Assembly (NCBI GenBank): GCA_005223185.1 | Contig: NJBN01000003.1 | Location: 1 to 64,000 of the forward strand | Length of the DNA stretch: 64,000 nucleotides | From: a candidate division LCP-89 bacterium B3_LCP | GTDB lineage: Bacteria > Electryoneota > B3-LCP | Reading direction: 5' to 3' | Shown here: positions 4,831-63,076 of the stretch, piece by piece | How the letters are laid out: every line of letters starts with the position of its first letter | Numbering within the stretch: the stretch's first letter is position 1 | Made by a program: the position numbers and the translations under genes | Notes under the pieces: model-generated | Told to the model about the DNA's origin: nothing | Database searches by the model: none | The model's input: only the letters and a program-made list of their open reading frames with translations

Positions 4831-7251
4831 TTACTTGACAAGCACCATCTTGCCACTAGCATTGTAATCACTCGTAGTCAGGTTGTAGATGTAGATTCCC
4901 GAAGCAAGATCAGAGCCATTAAAAGTCACTTCATGCACACCCGCGTCCCGCCAGCCGTTGACCAGATCTGCGACCTTGCGCCCTGATAAGTCATAGACCA
5001 CCAGATGAACCAGATTTGCATCATGCAACTGGTAGCTAATAACTGTAGTCGGGTTGAACGGATTGGGATAAGCACCTTTGCAGGCGAATTCGACAGGGAT
5101 TTCAACATCGGTATCGGCGATCCAGTTATCGAAGCTCTCACCACTATTGATCCATTCGTTAAAGGCTGATCCGTTATCGCCTGTGCTAAGTTTCTCGAAA
5201 GTAAAGGCGTCATCATCCCAGACATCGTCCGGATAAGTTCCGATGTAAGCATTGTAGCTGTAAGTGCCTGTAGGTGCTCCTACCGGGACATCCTGTGAGC
5301 GGTCGCGGTCCACACTCGAATTACCCGCTAAGTAAACATTGACAGGTCCCAAGACCGGACCGAAAGTGGAGCCATTCGGTAGAGTAACGTCGCACCAGAC
5401 ATCAAAGGAGGCACCTGATGACTGGTTGTTTGTGGCTTCGATGTTATAGTCGAAACTGCCACCAGACGCGGGAATGGTGATGGGTGGATTATACGGCCTC
5501 AGTGAAATCGTCTGCGGTGGGGGCGCGTAGGGCACTTCATCAGCAGTTTTTAATATCCATTCATCGGGATCGAATTCGACGTCCAGGGGAATGCCACCGA
5601 CGTCGAAGCTGTAGTATTGCACCTGTTCATCATTTTGAATGATGTGGATCTCTTCTCCTAAGGTGGTGGTAACCCAGATTTCCACCGGCATATCGAACAC
5701 GGGTGTCTGATTTATTAGTTCTTGAACCTGCATCACAGAGAGGTTCACCTGACTGCTATCGGGACTTAAAATTTCGAAATCCCATCCCCATTCGTATTCG
5801 GGATAACCCGCCATGTAAACCCATTGGTCGAAGAACCAGTCCAGATCCATTCCGGAGACGTCTTCGAAAGTCTGCTGGAGATCGGCAGTTACCGGTGACT
5901 GAAAGGCGTAACGGTCGCCCCATTCAAGGAAGAACGCCCAGAAATCGTCTTCACCGACGACATAGCGTAGCATGTTTAGTATCCAGGCACCTTTCTGATA
6001 AACGGTTCCTCCCCACATATTTTCGGGATTGTAAATGGGGAAGCGGTTAATGTTATCGTAGTAAAAATAGGTGCTCTTGAAAGAAGCCATCCGGTTTAGG
6101 AAAGCCTGCCAGCCCTGGTCATATTCGATCCACAGAGCATCCGAATAGGTGGCGAATCCTTCGTTCAGCCAGATGTCCATCCAGGTACCGCAGGTGACCA
6201 GATCACCCCACCACTGGTGCGCCAGCTCATGCACCATTATCCAGTGATAGTAATTGGTTCCGGTTATCAACCCTTCACCGTATGAGGTCAGGGTCTGATG
6301 TTCCATAGCTCCGCCCCACGGGAATTCAGCGTGGCCGTATTTCTCGTCCAGGAAGGGATATTCATCGAAAACGGAGGCGAAGAAGGTCATCACATCCGGC
6401 AGATCGGCGAAATCCACGTAGGAAGCTGACAGGTCTTCCGGATATACGTAGTGATCCAGAGGAACGGAATCTAAGGCTGCGGTTACATACCAGTCCTGCC
6501 AATGAATGAAATTAGTGGCGGTAACAGCTACCAGGTAGGTGGTGATGGGATAGTTTTCCACCCATTCGTAGGATTCCCATCCCGGTTCGGGAGTGGTTAT
6601 ACTCTGCAGGAGACCGTTACCGGTGGCGTACAGATTATCAGGCACAGTCCAGACCATTCTGATCGAATTAGCCTTATCCGAAGGCACATCCTTGCAGGGC
6701 CACCAGGTGCGGGAGCCTTCCGGTTCGGACAGTGAACTGATAATGGGGGTTCCCTGGTGTGTATCCCAGGAGAGCGCACCCAAGCCGCCACCGGAAACCG
6801 GGTAACCGTGATAATAAATGCTTAGGCCCGCAGTTTCTCCGGTAACAAGAGGCAGTGGAAGGTCGATCGTCAGGTTGTCTTCATAAGTATGAGAATATGA
6901 AGCCGTGGTTCCGTCAACCAGAATACTGTCTATGTCCATGTTGTAGTACAGGTGCAGATCGACGTCGTTCAGCGTTGGATCGGTACATTCGATCAGCATG
7001 TGGACGTGACCGTTAATGTATTCAATAGTTGGATCGAAGCGGATTTCGATGTCATATTCCAACGCGTCATAGCCGGAATCATCATCCAATTCATCTATGA
7101 CTTTGGCAGGCCCCCTGGCTTCTTTGGCATCAAAGAGTATCTGGTAGCCATCCGGATCGAGTATGGGGACTTCTCCGGAATGAGCTACTGCCGAAAGTAA
7201 AAGGATAGTCAACAGCAGTAAATATTGTATCAGTCGGATTGATTTACGCAT
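4831..7251 (-). CDS. Secreted M1 family aminopeptidase with T9SS sorting domain
   Basis: 806 residues. A signal peptide (about 1-25) leads into an M1 fold. The exopeptidase motif is GAMEH at 314-318, and the zinc site is HELAH at 341-345 with the third ligand Glu364 exactly 18 residues after the second His. TVYQKG further on probably carries the catalytic Tyr. These are the hallmarks of zinc aminopeptidases that trim N-terminal residues from peptides. After the peptidase comes an Ig-like module shared with other cargo in this window (about 620-735, NPPITIPASGGSFDY to DDAFTFEK), then the T9SS sorting domain (NPFNPTT ... GKMVLVK). Likely surface-bound or released peptide scavenging. AGAGGT precedes the ATG. 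Confidence 0.93.
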   Translation of the reverse strand: MRKSIRLIQYLLLLTILLLSAVAHSGEVPILDPDGYQILFDAKEARGPAKVIDELDDDSGYDALEYDIEIRFDPTIEYINGHVHMLIECTDPTLNDVDLHLYYNMDIDSILVDGTTASYSHTYEDNLTIDLPLPLVTGETAGLSIYYHGYPVSGGGLGALSWDTHQGTPIISSLSEPEGSRTWWPCKDVPSDKANSIRMVWTVPDNLYATGNGLLQSITTPEPGWESYEWVENYPITTYLVAVTATNFIHWQDWYVTAALDSVPLDHYVYPEDLSASYVDFADLPDVMTFFASVFDEYPFLDEKYGHAEFPWGGAMEHQTLTSYGEGLITGTNYYHWIMVHELAHQWWGDLVTCGTWMDIWLNEGFATYSDALWIEYDQGWQAFLNRMASFKSTYFYYDNINRFPIYNPENMWGGTVYQKGAWILNMLRYVVGEDDFWAFFLEWGDRYAFQSPVTADLQQTFEDVSGMDLDWFFDQWVYMAGYPEYEWGWDFEILSPDSSQVNLSVMQVQELINQTPVFDMPVEIWVTTTLGEEIHIIQNDEQVQYYSFDVGGIPLDVEFDPDEWILKTADEVPYAPPPQTISLRPYNPPITIPASGGSFDYNIEATNNQSSGASFDVWCDVTLPNGSTFGPVLGPVNVYLAGNSSVDRDRSQDVPVGAPTGTYSYNAYIGTYPDDVWDDDAFTFEKLSTGDNGSAFNEWINSGESFDNWIADTDVEIPVEFACKGAYPNPFNPTTVISYQLHDANLVHLVVYDLSGRKVADLVNGWRDAGVHEVTFNGSDLASGIYIYNLTTSDYNASGKMVLVK

Positions 7252-7286
7252 GTTTACCTCTTAAGGTTTATATCGAGCTTTCTATA

Positions 7287-7315
7287 AATATACGAAAATT
7301 TTCATTAAAAAGCAA
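7287..7315 (-). promoter_or_regulatory. Promoter for the M1 aminopeptidase gene
   Basis: Read on the minus strand: TTGCTT (7315-7310), a 17-base spacer, TATATT (7292-7287). The start site would be about 30 bases before the ATG at 7251. Confidence 0.55.
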
Positions 7316-7410
7316 GCAGGGAAAAAAATTGCGCTTGTAGCGTAGTGGTTTTTGTGGATGATGGAAGGACGGGAAAGCAGAGTAGCGTGATTGAGAATGA
7401 CCAGCTAAAA

Positions 7411-7436
7411 AAAAGGCACCACATAGGGTGCCTTTT
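7411..7436 (-). terminator. Terminator after the reeler-like cytochrome gene
   Basis: Perfect arms AAAAGGCACC and GGTGCCTTTT with flanking A and T runs on both sides. It lies just past the stop codon of the minus-strand gene at 7459. Confidence 0.88.
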
Positions 7437-7458
7437 TATATAGGACGTAGCGTATGAG

Positions 7459-8346
7459 CTATTTCAGGTAAATCAACTTACCGGTTGAGACTGCATTCTC
7501 AGTTTCAAGACGGTAAATGTACATTCCTGAAGCCAGATCTGCAGCGTTAAATTCCACAGAATTATCGCCTGCGGGTCGTGATCCTTCCACTAAGTTGGCT
7601 ACTAAATTCCCGGACAGATCATAAACTGACAGATTGATGTCTGAAGCAACCGGAAGCGAAAAGGAAATGGTCGTGGTGGAGTTGAAAGGATTAGGATATG
7701 CGTGCACAAGTTCGCTGGTTTTAGGTTTAGCGTTATGGTCGGTAATAACTCCCGTAGCACCTTCCTGGCTGGTAAAGGTCATAGTATAGATGTAATCTCC
7801 GGGTGTAGAACCGTCATAGTCGCCGGCGTTTGCTGCAAGGTAGAAAGTAATAGGTCCAAGACCTGGTGGTGGTGCTGTCCACTGGAAAGCCCATGCCGCA
7901 GCGTAGGGACTCCCGGGATATGATCCCATAGAAGTTTGCTTCAGGTAATCCAGAGCATCACCGGGATTTTCTGAAAGCTGCGTTGTAGGATCAAATGGTA
8001 TAGTTGCTAATACACCGCCCTGTTCGTTCCAACTGACCGCAGAAGTTAACTCAAACCCCCAAATGGTACTCGTTATAAAATCTATTACGTCAACATTGGC
8101 GTAATAGGTTTCATTGGGAGTGTAGGTGTCGGGAATTCCGGTGAGATCAATAGAGCCCCCGCCCGAATTGACGGGATAGGTTGAATGGCAGGCTGTACAA
8201 TCCAAATTGCCTGTAGGTTCACCTGCGTACCCATCCGGCGGTCCCGAAACGTTGCCCCAGGCGATTCCTGTGAAGAACACTATGGTTAAGGGTACACTCA
8301 AGAATCTCCAGAATTTAGTAGTAGTCCGTTCTGAATTGATAGCCAT
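7459..8346 (-). CDS. Secreted monoheme reeler-like (choice-of-anchor V) protein, T9SS
   Basis: 295 residues. A signal anchor (about 15-31) is followed by GPPDGYAGEPTG and one heme-binding motif, CTACH, at 50-54. The following roughly 150 residues (about 60-215) look like the reeler/choice-of-anchor V beta-sandwich that often pairs with this CxxCH motif in environmental FCB proteins. The end is a T9SS sorting domain (NPFNSTT, YDLSGNLV, SGMYIYRL, GKLIYLK). The role is unknown; one covalently bound heme at the surface is expected if c-type maturation occurs. AGGAGGT precedes the ATG by seven bases. It is divergent from the other c-heme genes at 8700-10767, so the two sets may be related in function. 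Confidence 0.75.
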   Translation of the reverse strand: MAINSERTTTKFWRFLSVPLTIVFFTGIAWGNVSGPPDGYAGEPTGNLDCTACHSTYPVNSGGGSIDLTGIPDTYTPNETYYANVDVIDFITSTIWGFELTSAVSWNEQGGVLATIPFDPTTQLSENPGDALDYLKQTSMGSYPGSPYAAAWAFQWTAPPPGLGPITFYLAANAGDYDGSTPGDYIYTMTFTSQEGATGVITDHNAKPKTSELVHAYPNPFNSTTTISFSLPVASDINLSVYDLSGNLVANLVEGSRPAGDNSVEFNAADLASGMYIYRLETENAVSTGKLIYLK

Positions 8347-52278: not shown

Positions 52279-52726
52279 GATTTATCCTCAGAGCTTTAGG
52301 GACACTCATCCCGGTTATACCCTCAGAACGGGCTGGCTATTACTTTGACGAACAGGATGATAAGATTCTTGACTAAGGAAAATCCGCAGGTGAGTCTGTT
52401 TTCCTGCGGAGAGATGGTTCCCGAACCGCGTTAGGAATTGCACTTTATATAACGGTGGGCGAATAGAATTTAATAAATCAGACGGAAGAAATCAAGGACT
52501 TAGAGGAAAAAAATTTGAGGGGTGAAAAATATAATACCTTAAATGAAAACTCTTCGGTAAGTTGTAACTTCAAGAAGAATAATTATCATTTTTTTATTGC
52601 ATTACTTAAAATTAGCCTTATATTTCATATTGATGAATTTTCCTGATAAATATGTCATATCAGGGCTCGGAACAGGCAGTCTTTAGATTTTCCATCGAAC
52701 CGGAAATTAATAAGAAGTATATCGGA
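52279..52726. other. Intergenic region with hairpin, start of duplicated segment
   Basis: It is the leader region between the hdrC-like gene (-) and the SGNH gene (+). An inverted pair CCGCAGG/CCTGCGG lies at 52384-52409. From about 52402 on the sequence is homologous to 55073 onwards. A TTGCAT, 16 bases, TATATT set near 52597-52624 may be the SGNH promoter; its counterpart lies near 55267-55294. A frame from the ATG at 52652 is open, but the paralogue has stops there. Confidence 0.5.
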
Positions 52727-54230
52727 ATGGGCAAGACTGGAATAGGCTATATACTTATAGGGATTCTGTTAATTGTTGTTGGTATAATTGGTAATGAATG
52801 GGTTCTCGCTCATAAAGTGAATCACTTTTCGTTCGATTTTGCGCGGTTATCGCGAATCGCAATACGATGCTGCCAATTGCTTTTCCTGGCAATTGGATTA
52901 TACTTAATATTCAGGAGCAGAGAAAAACTTGGCAATGACCTGAAGAATTTCGGTCTTCTCATTAGCTCGATGTTGTTATCTTTGATCCTCCTCGAAATTG
53001 CCTTAAGATTAATCACACCAAATACCGTTTTCCATCCCATTTTTGAACTGATCCCCTACCAGAAGGACATCATCCTCGTCGAGTTGCCGGGTGTGGCTGA
53101 TACAGTATATGCAAGCACCAATAAATGGGGTTTGCGAGGTGATCCCATCCCAGGTAATTGGGAAAATCTGACGAGCATCCTCATGATTGGTGGCAGCACC
53201 ACATATTGTATGTATTTATCGGATAATAAGACCTGGCCATATCTGTTACAGGATTTTCTTCGCCAGGACGATCCATCGGTGATTGTTCAGAACAGTGGGC
53301 ATGATGGTCACACAACTTACGCTCACCTGATCATGATGGAAGAAGTTGTCCCGGTAATCAAACCTAAAGTTGTAATTATGTTAGTGGGTGTAAACGATAT
53401 GCGAAAGGCCCTGCGCCAGGGTCGTCATAGGATTGTTAATCGATTGGAAGAATCCAGATCAATCTTTCGGCTGTACTCCTATTCGCGCACAGTTCAACTA
53501 GCATTAAAATGGTATCAGGTAATTATTAATAAAGTCCCTCTTGTTGACAAAATAGAATACACATTCACTATCAATCACCAACCTATACCAGTAGATGACA
53601 ATAAATCTGAACAGGATATTCTCGGAAGAGCAGAGTCCCTTACTGATGAGTTTCAAGTTCACCTCATCGAGATTATAAAGTGCGCACAAGCTTCTGGGAT
53701 AAAATTATTGTTCATAACTCAGCCAGGAATATACGATGATACCGAGTACTGGCAGGGTATAAGAGCTCAGTGGTCTTATGCGGAAAAAAATCAAGTCTTC
53801 AACTCAGCTGCAACTGAATCGAAAATACTTAATATTTTTAATCAAAAACTCATGAATATCTGTGAAAGTGAAGGTATCGCTTGTTTCGATTTAGCGTCCG
53901 CCGTTCCGCACAGCTCGGAATATTTCTATGACGATTACCACTTTAATGAATCCGGTGCAGAGTTTGTTGCTGAACAGATATATTCGTATATCAGAGAAAG
54001 CAATTTTATCAAAACAGCAAACCACTGAACTTAAGATTACTATATAATTTAAAAAGAATTAATCCACCTGTATAAGCCTTCGAAGTGTGGCTTTCATCCC
54101 CTATAACAACAAGGGTTACGAAATTATTCGCAATCCTTATTTATTTGCACTCTTTTCGGGTGACTGTTACTTCATCAGCACCATCTTGCCACTGATTTTG
54201 AAGTCACCGGCCTCAAGCAGGTAAACATAT
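52402..54230. repeat. Tandem duplicated segment, copy A
   Basis: Homologous along its whole length to 55073-56884 at an offset of about 2670 bases. It covers the upstream region, the SGNH gene, the downstream gap and the tail of a minus-strand cargo gene. Many substitutions and small indels show that the duplication is not recent. Confidence 0.85.
52727..54028 (+). CDS. Membrane-anchored SGNH/GDSL-like hydrolase, paralogue A
   Basis: 433 residues from the ATG at 52727. I chose this start because the paralogue at 55397 has the same length from the matching ATG and stops upstream of it. Three hydrophobic segments lie at about 6-25, 45-63 and 73-95. The rest is an SGNH hydrolase: the nucleophile motif reads IGGSTTYC with Ser157 (GGST instead of GDS), the Asn block is MLVGVNDM, and the Asp-His pair is Asp402 and His405 in DDYHFNESG. 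Such enzymes deacylate or acylate surface glycans or lipids. No polysaccharide genes are near, so the substrate is unknown. Confidence 0.83.
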   Translation: MGKTGIGYILIGILLIVVGIIGNEWVLAHKVNHFSFDFARLSRIAIRCCQLLFLAIGLYLIFRSREKLGNDLKNFGLLISSMLLSLILLEIALRLITPNTVFHPIFELIPYQKDIILVELPGVADTVYASTNKWGLRGDPIPGNWENLTSILMIGGSTTYCMYLSDNKTWPYLLQDFLRQDDPSVIVQNSGHDGHTTYAHLIMMEEVVPVIKPKVVIMLVGVNDMRKALRQGRHRIVNRLEESRSIFRLYSYSRTVQLALKWYQVIINKVPLVDKIEYTFTINHQPIPVDDNKSEQDILGRAESLTDEFQVHLIEIIKCAQASGIKLLFITQPGIYDDTEYWQGIRAQWSYAEKNQVFNSAATESKILNIFNQKLMNICESEGIACFDLASAVPHSSEYFYDDYHFNESGAEFVAEQIYSYIRESNFIKTANH

Positions 54231-55050
54231 ACACCTGAAGATAAATCCCTGCCGTCAAATGTTACTTCATTTATTCCAGCTCCCCGCCAACCGTTCACAA
54301 GAGTAGTGACCATCTTCCCGCTGATATCGTAGATTGACAGGTTTACGAGACCAGTTGAAGGCAATTCGAAACTGAGAGTCGTCCTGGGATTAAAAGGATT
54401 AGGCGTACTGTTTAGAAGTATCTCTGCAGATTTCATGGATTTGCTGTGTGAAGCATCACTGTATGCACTTAGCTTGTCGAATAGATCATGCTCTAATTGC
54501 GACGATAATGCGGACGACCAGACAGTGAGCCACCAATGGAAACCCATGTCTACTATACCAACGTCCGGGAATTGATCCGTCCGGGTTGTGCCCTGGATCA
54601 AGGGCGAATTCGGGTCACCCGCATCCATACAGGGGCTGTCCTGCGGCTGACCGGCGGCAATCTGGCAGAGATAAGAGAAACCCAAAGGGGGATTATGCAC
54701 AAATAGTGGATCACTGCTGATATTCCCTATTCCAGACATACCACCCTGTATACATGAGTAAATGAATGAGGTCGTACCGTAGATGTTTGGATTGTTCGTG
54801 GCAAAGTTATCGTAAACTATGTTGTTTCTACCTGTTACTGAAGCACCGGAATAGACGTAAATTACAGCTCCGCTGGAATTATAACCTACGTAAGTTGAAC
54901 GGTTTCTGACAATTGTATTGTTGATAAGCGTGGGTGAGCAGCTATAAGCAAAAAAACCGCCTCCACGGCAATATGCCCGATTCACGGCTAATAAATTATT
55001 GGTGAAAACTGCATCTGTGTATTGACAGCGGATCCCGCCACCACCACAGC
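54167..55050 (-). pseudogene. 5'-truncated beta-helix T9SS cargo gene
   Basis: The open frame gives beta-helix coils (GGGGIRCQYTDAVFTNN, RGGGFFAYSCSPTLINN) followed by a sorting domain that ends ISGKMVLMK. It has no signal peptide. Going upstream the frame meets a TGA at 55055-55057 just where the duplicated segment B begins, so the 5' part was cut off at the duplication junction. A GTG at 54985 would give 272 residues, but no export signal would be present. It is most likely non-functional. Confidence 0.75.
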
Positions 55051-55396
55051 TCCCTCACGTGAAGGTGAATGATCCTGCAGAGGGATGTGTCCCAAACCGT
55101 GCGAGCAGATGCACTTGTTACGGTGGGATGGTAAAGTTAATGAATCTCAGGTGTAAAATCAAGCGCTTCTAATAAAAATATTTGCGGGATGAACAAAATA
55201 ATTCCTTGAATGAAGGACTTTTCGGTAAGCTGTAGATTTAAAAAAGAAAAAACTAATATTTATAAATTGCAATCACTCGAAAAGACCTTATATTATACAT
55301 AGATGAACATTCCTGGCAAATGATTAATATAAGGATCGGTCGGGGCAGCTCTTAGATTTTCCATCAAACCAAATATTAATTAGGAAGTATAACGGG

Positions 55397-56698
55397 ATGC
55401 ACGGGACAAAAACAGACTATAGACTTATAGGAATTCTGTTCATCGCTGTTGCTGTAATCTGCAACGAATGGATTCTCACGAATTTTCTGAATAACCCTTC
55501 GTTTGATACCGCACGGCTATTTCAAATCGTAATACGATGCTGCCAATTACTATTCCTGGTAATCGGATTGTGGCTAATATTCAGGAGGAAAGACAAACGT
55601 GGCAATGACCTGAAAAATTTCGGTCTTCTTATAGCCTCGATGTTGTTATCTTTGGTCCTCCTTGAAATTGCCTTAAGATTAATCACGCCAAACTCCGTTT
55701 TCCATCCCCTCTTTGAACTGATCCCCCATCAGAAGAACACCATTCACACCGATTTACCGGGTGTGGCTGATACAGTATATACAAGCACCAATAAATGGGG
55801 TTTGCGAGGTGATCCCATCCCAGATAATTGGGAGAGCCTGACAAGCATCCTCACGATTGGCGGTAGCACAACACATTGTATGTATTTATCGGATGATAAA
55901 ACCTGGTCATATCAATTACAAAAATTTCTTCGCCTGGACGATCAAACGGCGATTGTTCAGAACGGAGGGCGTGACGGTCACACAACTCATGCTCACCTGA
56001 TCATGATGGAAGAAGTCGTCCCGGTAATCAAGCCTAAAATTGTAATTATGTTAGTGGGTGTTAATGATCTGAATATCGCCGTACGCCGGGGCTATCAAGA
56101 GGTTGATAACCCATTTAAAAAATCTAAATTAATCTTTCAGCTGTACTCCTGTTCTCGAACAGTTCAATTAGCATTTAAATGGTATCAAATATTGGTTAAT
56201 AAGGTCCCTATTGTTGAAAATATAGACTACACCCACACTGTCAATTACCAGCCTATACCTATGGACGACAATAAACCTGAACAGGATTTTCTCAGTAGAG
56301 CAGAGTCTCTTACTAATGAGTTTCAGAATCACCTTATCGAAATTATAAAGATCGCAAAAGCTTCCGGGATAAAATTATTGTTCATGACGCAGCCGGCGCT
56401 ATACGATGATACCGATTACTGGAAGGGTATAAGAGCTCAGTGGTTTTATCCGGAAAAACATTCAATTGTCTTCTCAGCCGCAACCGAGTGGAAATTACTG
56501 GATATTTTAAATCGAAAGCTCATAAATATTTGCGAAAGTGAAGGCATCGCCTGTTTCGATTTAGCCTCCGCCATTCCGCATAGCTCGGAATATTTCTATG
56601 ACGATTACCACTTTAATGAACTCGGCGCAAAGTTTACTGCTGAACAGGTATATTCGTATATAAGAGAAAGTAATTTTATCAAATCAGCAACCCCATAA
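55397..56698 (+). CDS. Membrane-anchored SGNH/GDSL-like hydrolase, paralogue B
   Basis: 433 residues, same length as paralogue A, with AGGAAG upstream of the ATG. The three membrane segments, Ser157 (IGGSTTH), the MLVGVND block and Asp402/His405 (DDYHFNELG) are all kept, so the copy is likely active. Differences are spread along the gene and densest near the N-terminus and between residues about 225 and 290. The pair may have split substrates. Nearest homologues by pattern are GDSL-like lipases/acylhydrolases with N-terminal membrane anchors. Confidence 0.83.
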   Translation: MHGTKTDYRLIGILFIAVAVICNEWILTNFLNNPSFDTARLFQIVIRCCQLLFLVIGLWLIFRRKDKRGNDLKNFGLLIASMLLSLVLLEIALRLITPNSVFHPLFELIPHQKNTIHTDLPGVADTVYTSTNKWGLRGDPIPDNWESLTSILTIGGSTTHCMYLSDDKTWSYQLQKFLRLDDQTAIVQNGGRDGHTTHAHLIMMEEVVPVIKPKIVIMLVGVNDLNIAVRRGYQEVDNPFKKSKLIFQLYSCSRTVQLAFKWYQILVNKVPIVENIDYTHTVNYQPIPMDDNKPEQDFLSRAESLTNEFQNHLIEIIKIAKASGIKLLFMTQPALYDDTDYWKGIRAQWFYPEKHSIVFSAATEWKLLDILNRKLINICESEGIACFDLASAIPHSSEYFYDDYHFNELGAKFTAEQVYSYIRESNFIKSATP

Positions 56699-56834
56699 GC
56701 TTCACATGCTACATAATTAAGAAGGAATTACTCCACCTGTATCAGCCTTTGAACTGTGGTTTACATCCCCTATAGCAAAAAGGATCACGACATTATTCGC
56801 AATCCTTTTTATTTGCATTTTTTTAGGGTGACTG

Positions 56835-56884
56835 CTATTTCATTAGAACCATCTTGCCACTTGTTTTGAAGTCACCTGCTTCAT
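56835..56884 (-). pseudogene. Remnant of a T9SS cargo gene tail
   Basis: The minus strand reads EAGDFKTSGKMVLMK and a TAG stop, with nothing coding upstream. It is the copy-B equivalent of the tail of the beta-helix gene at 54167. The ImmA gene begins right beside it, so this is the second junction of the rearrangement. Confidence 0.75.
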
Positions 56885-56897
56885 CGACCTATCCGTT

Positions 56898-57494
56898 TCA
56901 CAACTGACTTTCCAGGAATAGAAGCACGCGAACCACACCCTGCCCTTCATCTACATAGGTTGCTTCTAAGGAATATTCCCCCATGTTGATTAGGACTTCA
57001 GACTTGCTTTCCAAGCATTTTTGCATTACTTCCGATTCTATGGGGAGAAGTTGGGCGGGATGGTTCCAGCCATCAGGAGACAGACGCGCTGTCAGTTGAT
57101 CGTTGTCGAAGATAGTCAACACACCCTGACGGTAGTTTAATCTGCGGCGAGCGATCACTTCATGGCTGGCATGAGCGAAGCGCTGCTTTAGTACCAGCAG
57201 CGTTTCGTGCACTAAGGGCTTGAATTCTATTTCAGGTAAGATAAGCTCTGCGGCTAAATTATTAGCGTCAGTTTCCTGCTGTCTCTCCTCGGTGTCATCA
57301 ACAGGTGGACATTGATGATGCTGCAATTGCAGGTGAGCTAATTCGTGACAGTAAGCCCAGTGCAACCGTTCGATTCGAAGTGATCGATCCAGGACGATAA
57401 CGTCCCCTATCAAATAAGATCGGCGACCATCTGGCACATCGGTTAGACGGTAGGGCGCGTTGTACTGCTTAGCTAAATCATCAAGAAAACTCAC
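56898..57494 (-). CDS. ImmA/IrrE family metallopeptidase
   Basis: 198 residues from a GTG at 57494 with GGAG six bases upstream; a TTG at 57569 is an alternative with 89 bases of overlap. The zinc motif HELAH is at 50-54, followed by the downstream acidic ligand in QETDANNLAAELILP. The family cleaves partner XRE repressors in response to DNA damage or mobile element signals (ImmA of ICEBs1, IrrE of Deinococcus). The C-terminal part (about 120-198) is a further domain of unknown role. The gene overlaps its XRE partner by 14 bases. The pair could control a nearby integrated element or a stress regulon. Confidence 0.88.
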   Translation of the reverse strand: MSFLDDLAKQYNAPYRLTDVPDGRRSYLIGDVIVLDRSLRIERLHWAYCHELAHLQLQHHQCPPVDDTEERQQETDANNLAAELILPEIEFKPLVHETLLVLKQRFAHASHEVIARRRLNYRQGVLTIFDNDQLTARLSPDGWNHPAQLLPIESEVMQKCLESKSEVLINMGEYSLEATYVDEGQGVVRVLLFLESQL

Positions 57495-57948
57495 CCTCGT
57501 CTCCGGAATTCGCCTTCTCCTCTCCCCTATTCTCTCCACTATTTCTGCGGTACTCAAAGAGGGCTTCAACGAAAAACTGCTTGGACGGCTTGAACCGATC
57601 CAGGAAACGGATGCTCTTTAACAGCTCGATCTCTTCCGGGGTGGGTTTCATCAGAAGCCTGGTTCGTTCATCATCCAGCATTGCCTGCAATCCCGGATAC
57701 ATAACGGAATCTGCCGTCACTTCGTAGTAAGGATCCGGTTCACGGGCTGCGGTTGTTTCCGGAATCAACGAAGCAGGATCCATGCCCAAAGCATGTGCGA
57801 TTCTGTTTAAAACTTCCAGAGTGGGACTGCTGTGTCCGTTTTCTAACTGCGACAGATAAGTACGGTTAATACTTGCCGATGCAGCGAGTTCTTCCTGGCT
57901 TAATTGCGCCTTGACTCTGGCTTGACGGATATGAGGACCGATATTCAT
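57481..57948 (-). CDS. XRE family transcriptional regulator
   Basis: 155 residues. The helix-turn-helix is at about 5-62 (IRQARVKAQLSQEELAASA, INRTYLSQLENG, SPTLEVLNRIAHALGM). The C-terminal half (about 95-150) is helical and charged, likely for dimerisation and for cleavage by the ImmA partner. It is the first gene of the pair. A consensus promoter lies 45 bases upstream and faces away from another promoter, so the protein probably represses both, as in CI/Cro-like switches. RBS: AGAGGTG. Confidence 0.9.
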   Translation of the reverse strand: MNIGPHIRQARVKAQLSQEELAASASINRTYLSQLENGHSSPTLEVLNRIAHALGMDPASLIPETTAAREPDPYYEVTADSVMYPGLQAMLDDERTRLLMKPTPEEIELLKSIRFLDRFKPSKQFFVEALFEYRRNSGENRGEEKANSGDEGEFS

Positions 57949-61999: not shown

Positions 62000-63076
62000 A
62001 TGAGTTTGGATTACTCACAGGCTGAAAGCCTGAAACAAACCATCGTACGGCATTCGAGAGCCGGGGATCTTTCGCTCTATTCAGAAGCACAGGAACGCGA
62101 TCTGACGCTTTCGGAACTACTGGAAGAACTGGACCCGACGCCTCGAAGCGCCAACGGCAACCCGGCAGGGCAGTTTGACGCTTTCGAGCGCCAGATGCTG
62201 GTTATGGGACTCAACGGAAGCGGGCGCAGATCCATCACTGTCGAGGACTTCTACTTGGGCGGCGGACTGATTCTCCTGCCGGAATATATCCAGCGTGAAA
62301 TCCAGCGCGGTTATCGCCTGGTGCAGGATCCGCAGGAACTACTGGCTGCGTCAGTAGCAGTTAACGTACCGTCGGTCAAGCCTATCTACATCAAGATGGA
62401 TGGCGCCAAGGAGAGCTTCGCCAAGCGTTCTGATGGAGCCGCCTACCCCACGGTTCAGCTTCTTTACAGAGAGAAGGAAGCCGATATCGTTGACAAGGGA
62501 CGCAGCTTCGATTTCTCCTACAAGGTGATCAGAGGACAGAGGTTAGATGAATTCAAGGTATTCCTCTGGTGGATCGGAGCGCAATTGGCGTATGATGAAA
62601 TCGATGACATCTACGACGTAATCATCAACGGTGATGGTACCAGTCCCGGCGCTGCTGACGTTTTCAACGGTGCTGGAGGAACCTGGGCTTATTCCGATAT
62701 GGTACACCTGGCGATGTCCTTCGACGTACCATCGCAGATGACGCATGTCCTGGGCACCAGAGATGACATCGAGACCATCCTGAACCTGACTCAATACCAG
62801 GATCCGGATACCTGGCATGCTGCGGAACTGTTCAGCAAGCAGGGACGCTATCAGGGTCTGCTGCCCATGAATGCCAAACTGGTAGTTGCACCCAACGCAA
62901 CTGCAACCGAATTCGCAGCGTTGGACAGCCGCTTCGCCATCCGTGAATCGGTAGCGCAGCCACTGATGATCGAAGCGGAAAAAGTCATTTCACAGAAACT
63001 TGAAACTGCGGTGATTTCCAAAGAATCAGTTTACACCATCATGGTGGATGACGCCATGAAATCTTCGGATTACTAA
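62000..63076 (+). CDS. Phage-like major capsid protein (HK97 fold type)
   Basis: 358 residues, ATG after AGGAGG. The order of features fits HK97-type capsid proteins: a charged N-terminal arm (about 1-75), an E-loop-like beta region (about 120-165; KPIYIKMDGAKESFAKRSDGA), a long spine-like helix (about 175-205; RLDEFKVFLWWIGAQLAYDEIDD) followed by INGDG, and a beta-rich A-domain (LVVAPNATATEFAAL, MIEAEKVISQKLETAVIS). No protease, portal or terminase gene precedes it in the window. It could belong to a prophage, a gene-transfer-agent-like particle or an encapsulin-type shell. The first two are favoured because of the following genes. Confidence 0.72.
   Translation: MSLDYSQAESLKQTIVRHSRAGDLSLYSEAQERDLTLSELLEELDPTPRSANGNPAGQFDAFERQMLVMGLNGSGRRSITVEDFYLGGGLILLPEYIQREIQRGYRLVQDPQELLAASVAVNVPSVKPIYIKMDGAKESFAKRSDGAAYPTVQLLYREKEADIVDKGRSFDFSYKVIRGQRLDEFKVFLWWIGAQLAYDEIDDIYDVIINGDGTSPGAADVFNGAGGTWAYSDMVHLAMSFDVPSQMTHVLGTRDDIETILNLTQYQDPDTWHAAELFSKQGRYQGLLPMNAKLVVAPNATATEFAALDSRFAIRESVAQPLMIEAEKVISQKLETAVISKESVYTIMVDDAMKSSDY

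Follow-up and report, generated by a model that had tools for sequence, protein, structure and literature searches.

Analysis of a window of 64,000 nucleotides (nt), positions 1 to 64,000 of contig NJBN01000003.1 of the sediment bacterium B3_LCP of candidate division LCP-89 (GCA_005223185.1), indicated that it very probably holds a truncated copy of a gene from a new family of predicted selenoproteins, in which a UGA codon interrupts the frame of a beta-helix protein that usually carries the sorting tail of type IX secretion system (T9SS) cargo. The truncated gene lies between the two copies of a tandem duplication, each of which carries an SGNH hydrolase gene. The UGA, the frame on both sides of it and a predicted RNA hairpin behind it are conserved in the sequences compared, and predicted selenocysteine (Sec) machinery is present in the genome. 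The features of the truncated gene are the following.

54167-55057, minus strand: truncated 3' half of a UGA-containing beta-helix/T9SS gene, consisting of the UGA, 295 codons and a stop; Por_Secre_tail above cut-off.
55055-55057, minus strand: UGA in the reading frame, at the position of the putative selenocysteine codon in an alignment with intact paralogs.
55025-55041, minus strand: hairpin resembling a selenocysteine insertion sequence (SECIS), element positions 17-33; the weakest fold among 33 (-6.1 kcal/mol).
56835-56884, minus strand: cargo-tail remnant in copy B, about 50 nt.

The original prediction had described a long cargo tail at copy A and one of only 50 bases at copy B, and this was borne out: the frame is open for 296 codons at copy A (54167-55057, UGA counted) against 56835-56884 at copy B. 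Beyond that description, the minus-strand frame of the copy A tail begins at an in-frame UGA that is conserved in intact paralogs of one gene family, and what remains of the gene is the part 3' of that codon. Searching the same genome at the protein level with the fragment turned up a 63% paralog on contig 13, and its open frame starts at the same residue. Seven paralogs were found in the genome (contigs 2, 4, 7, 13, 16 twice and 18); they are 467-999 codons long, their sole interruption is one UGA at the same site, and their frames extend over at least about 210 codons before it and 257-787 after it. The pattern of the 3' element occurred at eight places in the genome, all with UGA, and at none in the reversed control. 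The fragment had 158 matches in its own genome (G000), where T9SS cargo genes are very numerous and the code for their tails is nearly repeated. If the event were no more than a plain tandem duplication that broke a cargo gene, with the UGA family incidental to it, the duplication and both hydrolases would be explained without the UGA, but the conserved UGA of the fragment and its paralogs would not; we consider this reading unlikely, as it is refuted as a full account and stands for the duplication alone.

The family pattern used for wider searches was degenerate at the amino-acid level and allowed TGA, TGC or TGT at the site. Among 39 genomes of the phylum it gave 31 matches in eight genomes, all 31 with TGA and none with TGC or TGT, and the reversed control gave none; the eight are all six genomes of the source genome's taxonomic family together with G010 and G015. 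A search of 386 genomes added two copies, both with TGA, in G139, which belongs to another phylum and is the one genome sampled from it; the reversed control of this search matched in three genomes. A single TGT match in G209, with in-frame stops upstream, was taken as chance. All 33 family members (31 of the phylum and two of G139) read U-x-x-C-G-G-[GCS]-G-I-R.

The predicted coding sequence is conserved on both sides of the in-frame UGA. An ATG lies 198-279 codons upstream of the UGA in 28 of the 31 phylum copies. Alignment of 29 proteins from nine genomes (28 of the phylum and L116 of G139, omitting L087, L101, L102 and the cut locus L115) revealed no variation in the UGA column or in the Cys three positions later, and the ratio of nonsynonymous to synonymous substitution rates (dN/dS) for unsaturated pairs was 0.09-0.26 before the UGA and 0.19-0.25 after it. 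The downstream half as a separate gene was ruled out, since the family genes share no conserved start codon downstream of the UGA. Four of 21 complete family genes end in TGA, so that UGA is also a true stop in family genes, and genome-wide reassignment of UGA was ruled out.

In the 33 sequences of the element, columns 17-23 pair with columns 27-33 and enclose a GAU loop; of 231 cells, 229 (99.1%) are paired, and RNAalifold predicted the same helix unprompted. The pair 18-32 occurs as CG (20 sequences), UG (6), AU (5) and UA (2); the covariation score was reached by none of 500 shuffles, and slid controls were 36-70% paired. The codon after IR, which holds the varying pair, shifts from Cys to Leu, His or Tyr with the pairing kept, so that the RNA rather than the residue seems to be conserved. 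GGG stands at positions 22-24 in all 33 sequences, even though it makes up 16% of Gly codons. The published limits for a bacterial SECIS are a loop of 3-9 nt, a stem of 4-16 bp, a G in the first two loop positions, a spacing of 16-37 nt and a minimum free energy of -7.5 or below (PMC13188914), and the predicted family hairpin falls within them, with a loop of 3 nt, a stem of 7 bp, G first and a spacing of 20 nt; the energy limit holds for 31 of 33 elements and fails for L076 (-6.7) and the window fragment (-6.1).

As a positive control, the SelD genes of this genome and of G001 carry a UGA within VSCAG-U-ASKLG, followed by a hairpin in the same register, 17-23 with 27-33. Like the family, the own-genome SelD (TIGR00476) has an in-frame UGA and then a 7-bp triloop hairpin; unlike the family, its loop is GGA and not GAU. 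SelD is an enzyme of selenium metabolism, without a sorting tail. The SelD UGA gene adjoins tRNA-Sec1 on contig 18 (L070:1583-2641, minus strand).

SelA, SelB, tRNA-Sec and SelD, the set required for a bacterial selenoprotein, are all predicted in the genome: SelD (375.8 bits, cut-off 125) and two each of SelA, SelB and tRNA-Sec (UCA anticodon), located as follows.

Contig 16, 189863-191713: SelB gene.
Contig 18, 232578-234473: SelB gene.
Contig 6, 6896-8254: SelA gene.
Contig 7, 557388-558758: SelA gene.
Contig 13, 102551-102642: tRNA-Sec gene.
Contig 18, 55476-55568: tRNA-Sec gene.

The two divergent Sec gene sets are spread over contigs and do not form one operon. Two SelA above the cut-off were present in exactly the eight family-bearing genomes of the phylum, the other 31 having one or none, and two SelA were found in none of 61 genomes from other phyla, among them G139. 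Two SelB scored above the cut-off in seven of the eight, the second of G003 being a contig-edge fragment nearest SelB2. Two tRNA-Sec genes above 60 bits were found in all six genomes of the source genome's taxonomic family, while one was listed for G010 and one for G015; these genes fall into two sequence types. Trees constructed with 20 of the sequences found separate SelB1 from SelB2 and SelA1 from SelA2. Both SelA of the genome score above the SelA cut-off and keep the motif SGDKxLGGPQ, in which we presume a role for the lysine. The eight-of-eight match between second SelA and family does not represent eight independent events, because the eight genomes may share one gain. In G139 (89% complete) the family occurs alongside only one SelA, and this lies outside the SelA2 clade; the finding argues against a strict need for the second Sec set and contradicts a strict one-to-one dependence of the family on a second SelA. 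Genomes with two tRNA-Sec genes have already been published, eight of them bacterial (PMC5330540).

The divergent second set of SelA, SelB and tRNA-Sec could be the agent of a recoding of the UGA to another residue (e.g. Cys, Ser or Trp), but such recoding is in our estimate very unlikely: both SelA retain the motif and the score of SelA, the hairpin register is the same as that of SelD, and the U-x-x-C context is typical of selenoproteins (PMC13188914). A genuine stop or low-level readthrough, with the halves as separate or decayed frames, would suit the UGA ends of four of the 21 genes and the truncated window copy, but is highly improbable given two halves kept in frame under purifying selection in the 29 aligned proteins from nine genomes, the lack of a conserved start after the UGA, and a UGA with the RNA hairpin in 33 of 33 members.

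The family proteins are predicted T9SS type A cargo, TIGR04183 being above cut-off in all seven full-length proteins of the genome and the window fragment scoring above the cut-off of the Pfam tail. An AlphaFold2 model showed a beta-helix (pLDDT 93.8, pTM 0.89) with the UGA position (residue 219) in a loop flanked by strands 209-211 and 227-230. The best Foldseek matches, a PL6 alginate lyase and Rhombotarget A (PDB 7o7a, 9cdv), have the parallel beta-helix in common with it at a TM-score of 0.33-0.38 and an identity of only 14-15%, which allows no functional inference. The Sec motif UGSC of several family members is also that of the UGSC-containing protein (NF041046; PMC13188914, Table 1), and none of the seven own-genome family proteins matched NF041046 at E <= 0.01. 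U-x-x-C, with a likely redox role, is likewise common to the family and the UxxC thioredoxin-like selenoproteins (Trx, Grx and Prx-like) of the same table; unlike these, the family has a beta-helix fold and a T9SS sorting tail, and no Cys homolog was found at the site.

Several observations weigh against reading these genes as selenoprotein genes. Three of the 31 phylum copies are not clean full-length frames: the frame of L087 (G001:C38:51140-51168) closes 73 codons before the UGA, reflecting a broken gene or an assembly error, L101 is without an ATG, and L102 is the window fragment. With the strict motif, and TGC or TGT allowed, none of the 31 matches in the 39 genomes is a Cys homolog at the site, and three non-UGA beta-helix paralogs are without an equivalent of the UGA site. 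Changes on both sides are seen in one stem pair only (7 cells); single-sequence folds of 57 nt clearly beat shuffles (z < -2) in two of the eight own-genome elements, with three z values near zero; and the loop is GAU, against the commoner G followed by G or U (PMC13188914). The beta-helix is above the Pfam cut-off in four of the seven own-genome proteins. For B3_LCP, GCA_005223185.1, the deep-Sep study gives four known and no new selenoproteins in its Table 2, and according to its authors all known selenoproteins seem to have Cys homologs; their method, as they also state, may drop selenoproteins without Cys homologs (PMC12013277).

On the favoured reading of the family as selenoproteins, the UGA would be decoded as selenocysteine by SelA, SelB, tRNA-Sec and SelD, and we infer from the sequence comparisons that Sec insertion gives the U-x-x-C motif within the beta-helix loop. 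The T9SS would carry the finished protein to the cell surface, and there the selenol/thiol pair might, hypothetically, serve the family in redox or metal(loid) chemistry. Surface display of these proteins would depend on selenium, because termination at the UGA would lose the sorting tail. More tentatively, and doubtful on balance, two Sec systems may coexist, SelA2, SelB2 and tRNA-Sec2 having evolved for the surface beta-helix selenoproteins via a GAU-loop SECIS, with SelD and the rest served via GGA-type loops; these would then be the first selenoproteins without Cys homologs. The family in G139 with its one SelA outside the SelA2 clade speaks against such a division, and the second Sec set could simply be shared among all selenoproteins.

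The tandem duplication of the hydrolase and the 3' part of the neighbouring gene, originally predicted at 52402-54230 and 55073-56884, was reproduced with both ends and the offset of about 2.67 kb. A DNA search of the 3,794,239-base genome revealed only two long copies, 52402-54230 and 55073-56883, which are 81% identical, while the other 19 matches to the duplicated segment are 23-65 nt pieces of sorting-tail code. Gapped alignment set the copy ends and gave an offset of about 2669-2670 nt.

52402-54217, plus strand: duplicate copy A, comprising the hydrolase gene with its flanks and 51 nt from the end of the cargo tail (DNA search, gapped alignment).
55073-56886, plus strand: duplicate copy B, 81% identical to copy A (DNA search, gapped alignment).
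55058-55072, no strand: junction of the cargo fragment and copy B, with GGTGA common to the junction and the sequence left of copy A.

The breakpoint to copy B lies at most about 15 nt upstream of the UGA of the fragment, and the shared GGTGA would fit a microhomology-mediated duplication. The sequence itself shows that the hydrolase and the 3' part of its neighbour were duplicated in tandem and that the neighbour gene is left only as a 3' half. The proposal that a cargo gene had been split was upheld in one part: the window fragment is a truncated 3' half, because intact paralogs exist. The undivided hydrolase-cargo arrangement was not found in the 61 genomes searched, since the hydrolase is without a close relative there. 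A move of the other half of copy B's cargo to elsewhere in the genome was rejected, because no second near-identical copy of the 3' half is present there and the next best match reaches 63%. Over 885 nt the fragment is free of indels, against about 7.9 expected if it had been free since the duplication (P = 4e-4), so that the truncation may be younger than the duplication; without its first ~210 codons, the fragment is probably dead or dying.

A pair of genes coding for an XRE regulator and an ImmA/IrrE-like peptidase occupies 56898-57948 and ends at a distance of 14 nt from the boundary of copy B. Genes for phage capsid and terminase (62000-63076; L050:15133-16485) lie between copy B and the phosphoenolpyruvate carboxykinase gene and resemble a prophage remnant, which may have removed the rest of the cargo gene of copy B; a search for direct repeats bounding this region gave nothing convincing at the copy B end. 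A nucleotidyltransferase and HepT-like pair at L050:8283-8913 is a probable toxin-antitoxin unit.

The two genes inside the duplication are predicted SGNH/GDSL hydrolases.

52727-54028, plus strand: hydrolase A, 433 amino acids from the aligned ATG (458 from 52652); Pfam Lipase_GDSL_2 above cut-off.
55397-56698, plus strand: hydrolase B, 433 amino acids; Pfam Lipase_GDSL_2 above cut-off.

Their equal length of 433 residues, as first reported, holds if A begins at the ATG aligned with that of B (52727; 55397), a further in-frame ATG upstream giving 458. The proteins are identical at 315 of 433 positions without gaps, and the catalytic residues were confirmed as kept: the putative S182, N248, D427 and H430 (numbering of the 458-residue hydrolase A), which we take to belong to the named SGNH blocks, are identical in both. 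The suggested selection on both genes, for which dN/dS had been named as the check, also found support. The NG86 method gave dS 0.36, dN 0.16 and omega 0.43 (bootstrap 0.31-0.60), and GY94 gave omega 0.60, with omega = 1 rejected (2dlnL 9.8) and 0.5 not rejected; as a pairwise value is the mean over two branches, 0.60 also fits one free and one tight copy. Pairwise dN/dS was rejected as the sole test because it cannot tell the two copies apart, and indel and outgroup tests were used instead. The 1302 nt of the hydrolase gene show no indel against nine in 507 aligned flank nt; with one copy free, 11.5 would be expected in the gene (P about 1e-5), the flank rate resting on those nine events. Relative to the nearest outgroup, L032 (35-37% identity), unique changes numbered 20 in A and 12 in B (p = 0.22), which is not lopsided; two of 20 outgroups (L015 and L018) gave p just below 0.05, uncorrected for 20 tests, both with more changes in B. 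These results support constraint on both hydrolases. No close relative of them was found in the 61 genomes or the viral collection, and one at 35% was present in the genome contig collection.

Searches of the open-licence literature, with matches judged at most by title, found no earlier report of a beta-helix or T9SS selenoprotein or of doubled SelA/SelB, and none of the 119 selenoprotein families in Table 1 of a 2026 review is beta-helix or T9SS by name (PMC13188914). If the reading is true, selenocysteine would be used in secreted, T9SS-sorted beta-helix proteins, a fold outside that inventory, and seven full-length selenoprotein genes would reside in a genome credited with four known and no new ones (PMC12013277). 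Methods that require Cys homologs would miss a family lacking them, and the count of selenoproteins in uncultured lineages would then be too low. The doubled SelA, SelB and tRNA-Sec could be used to test whether two Sec-decoding systems operate in the same cell.

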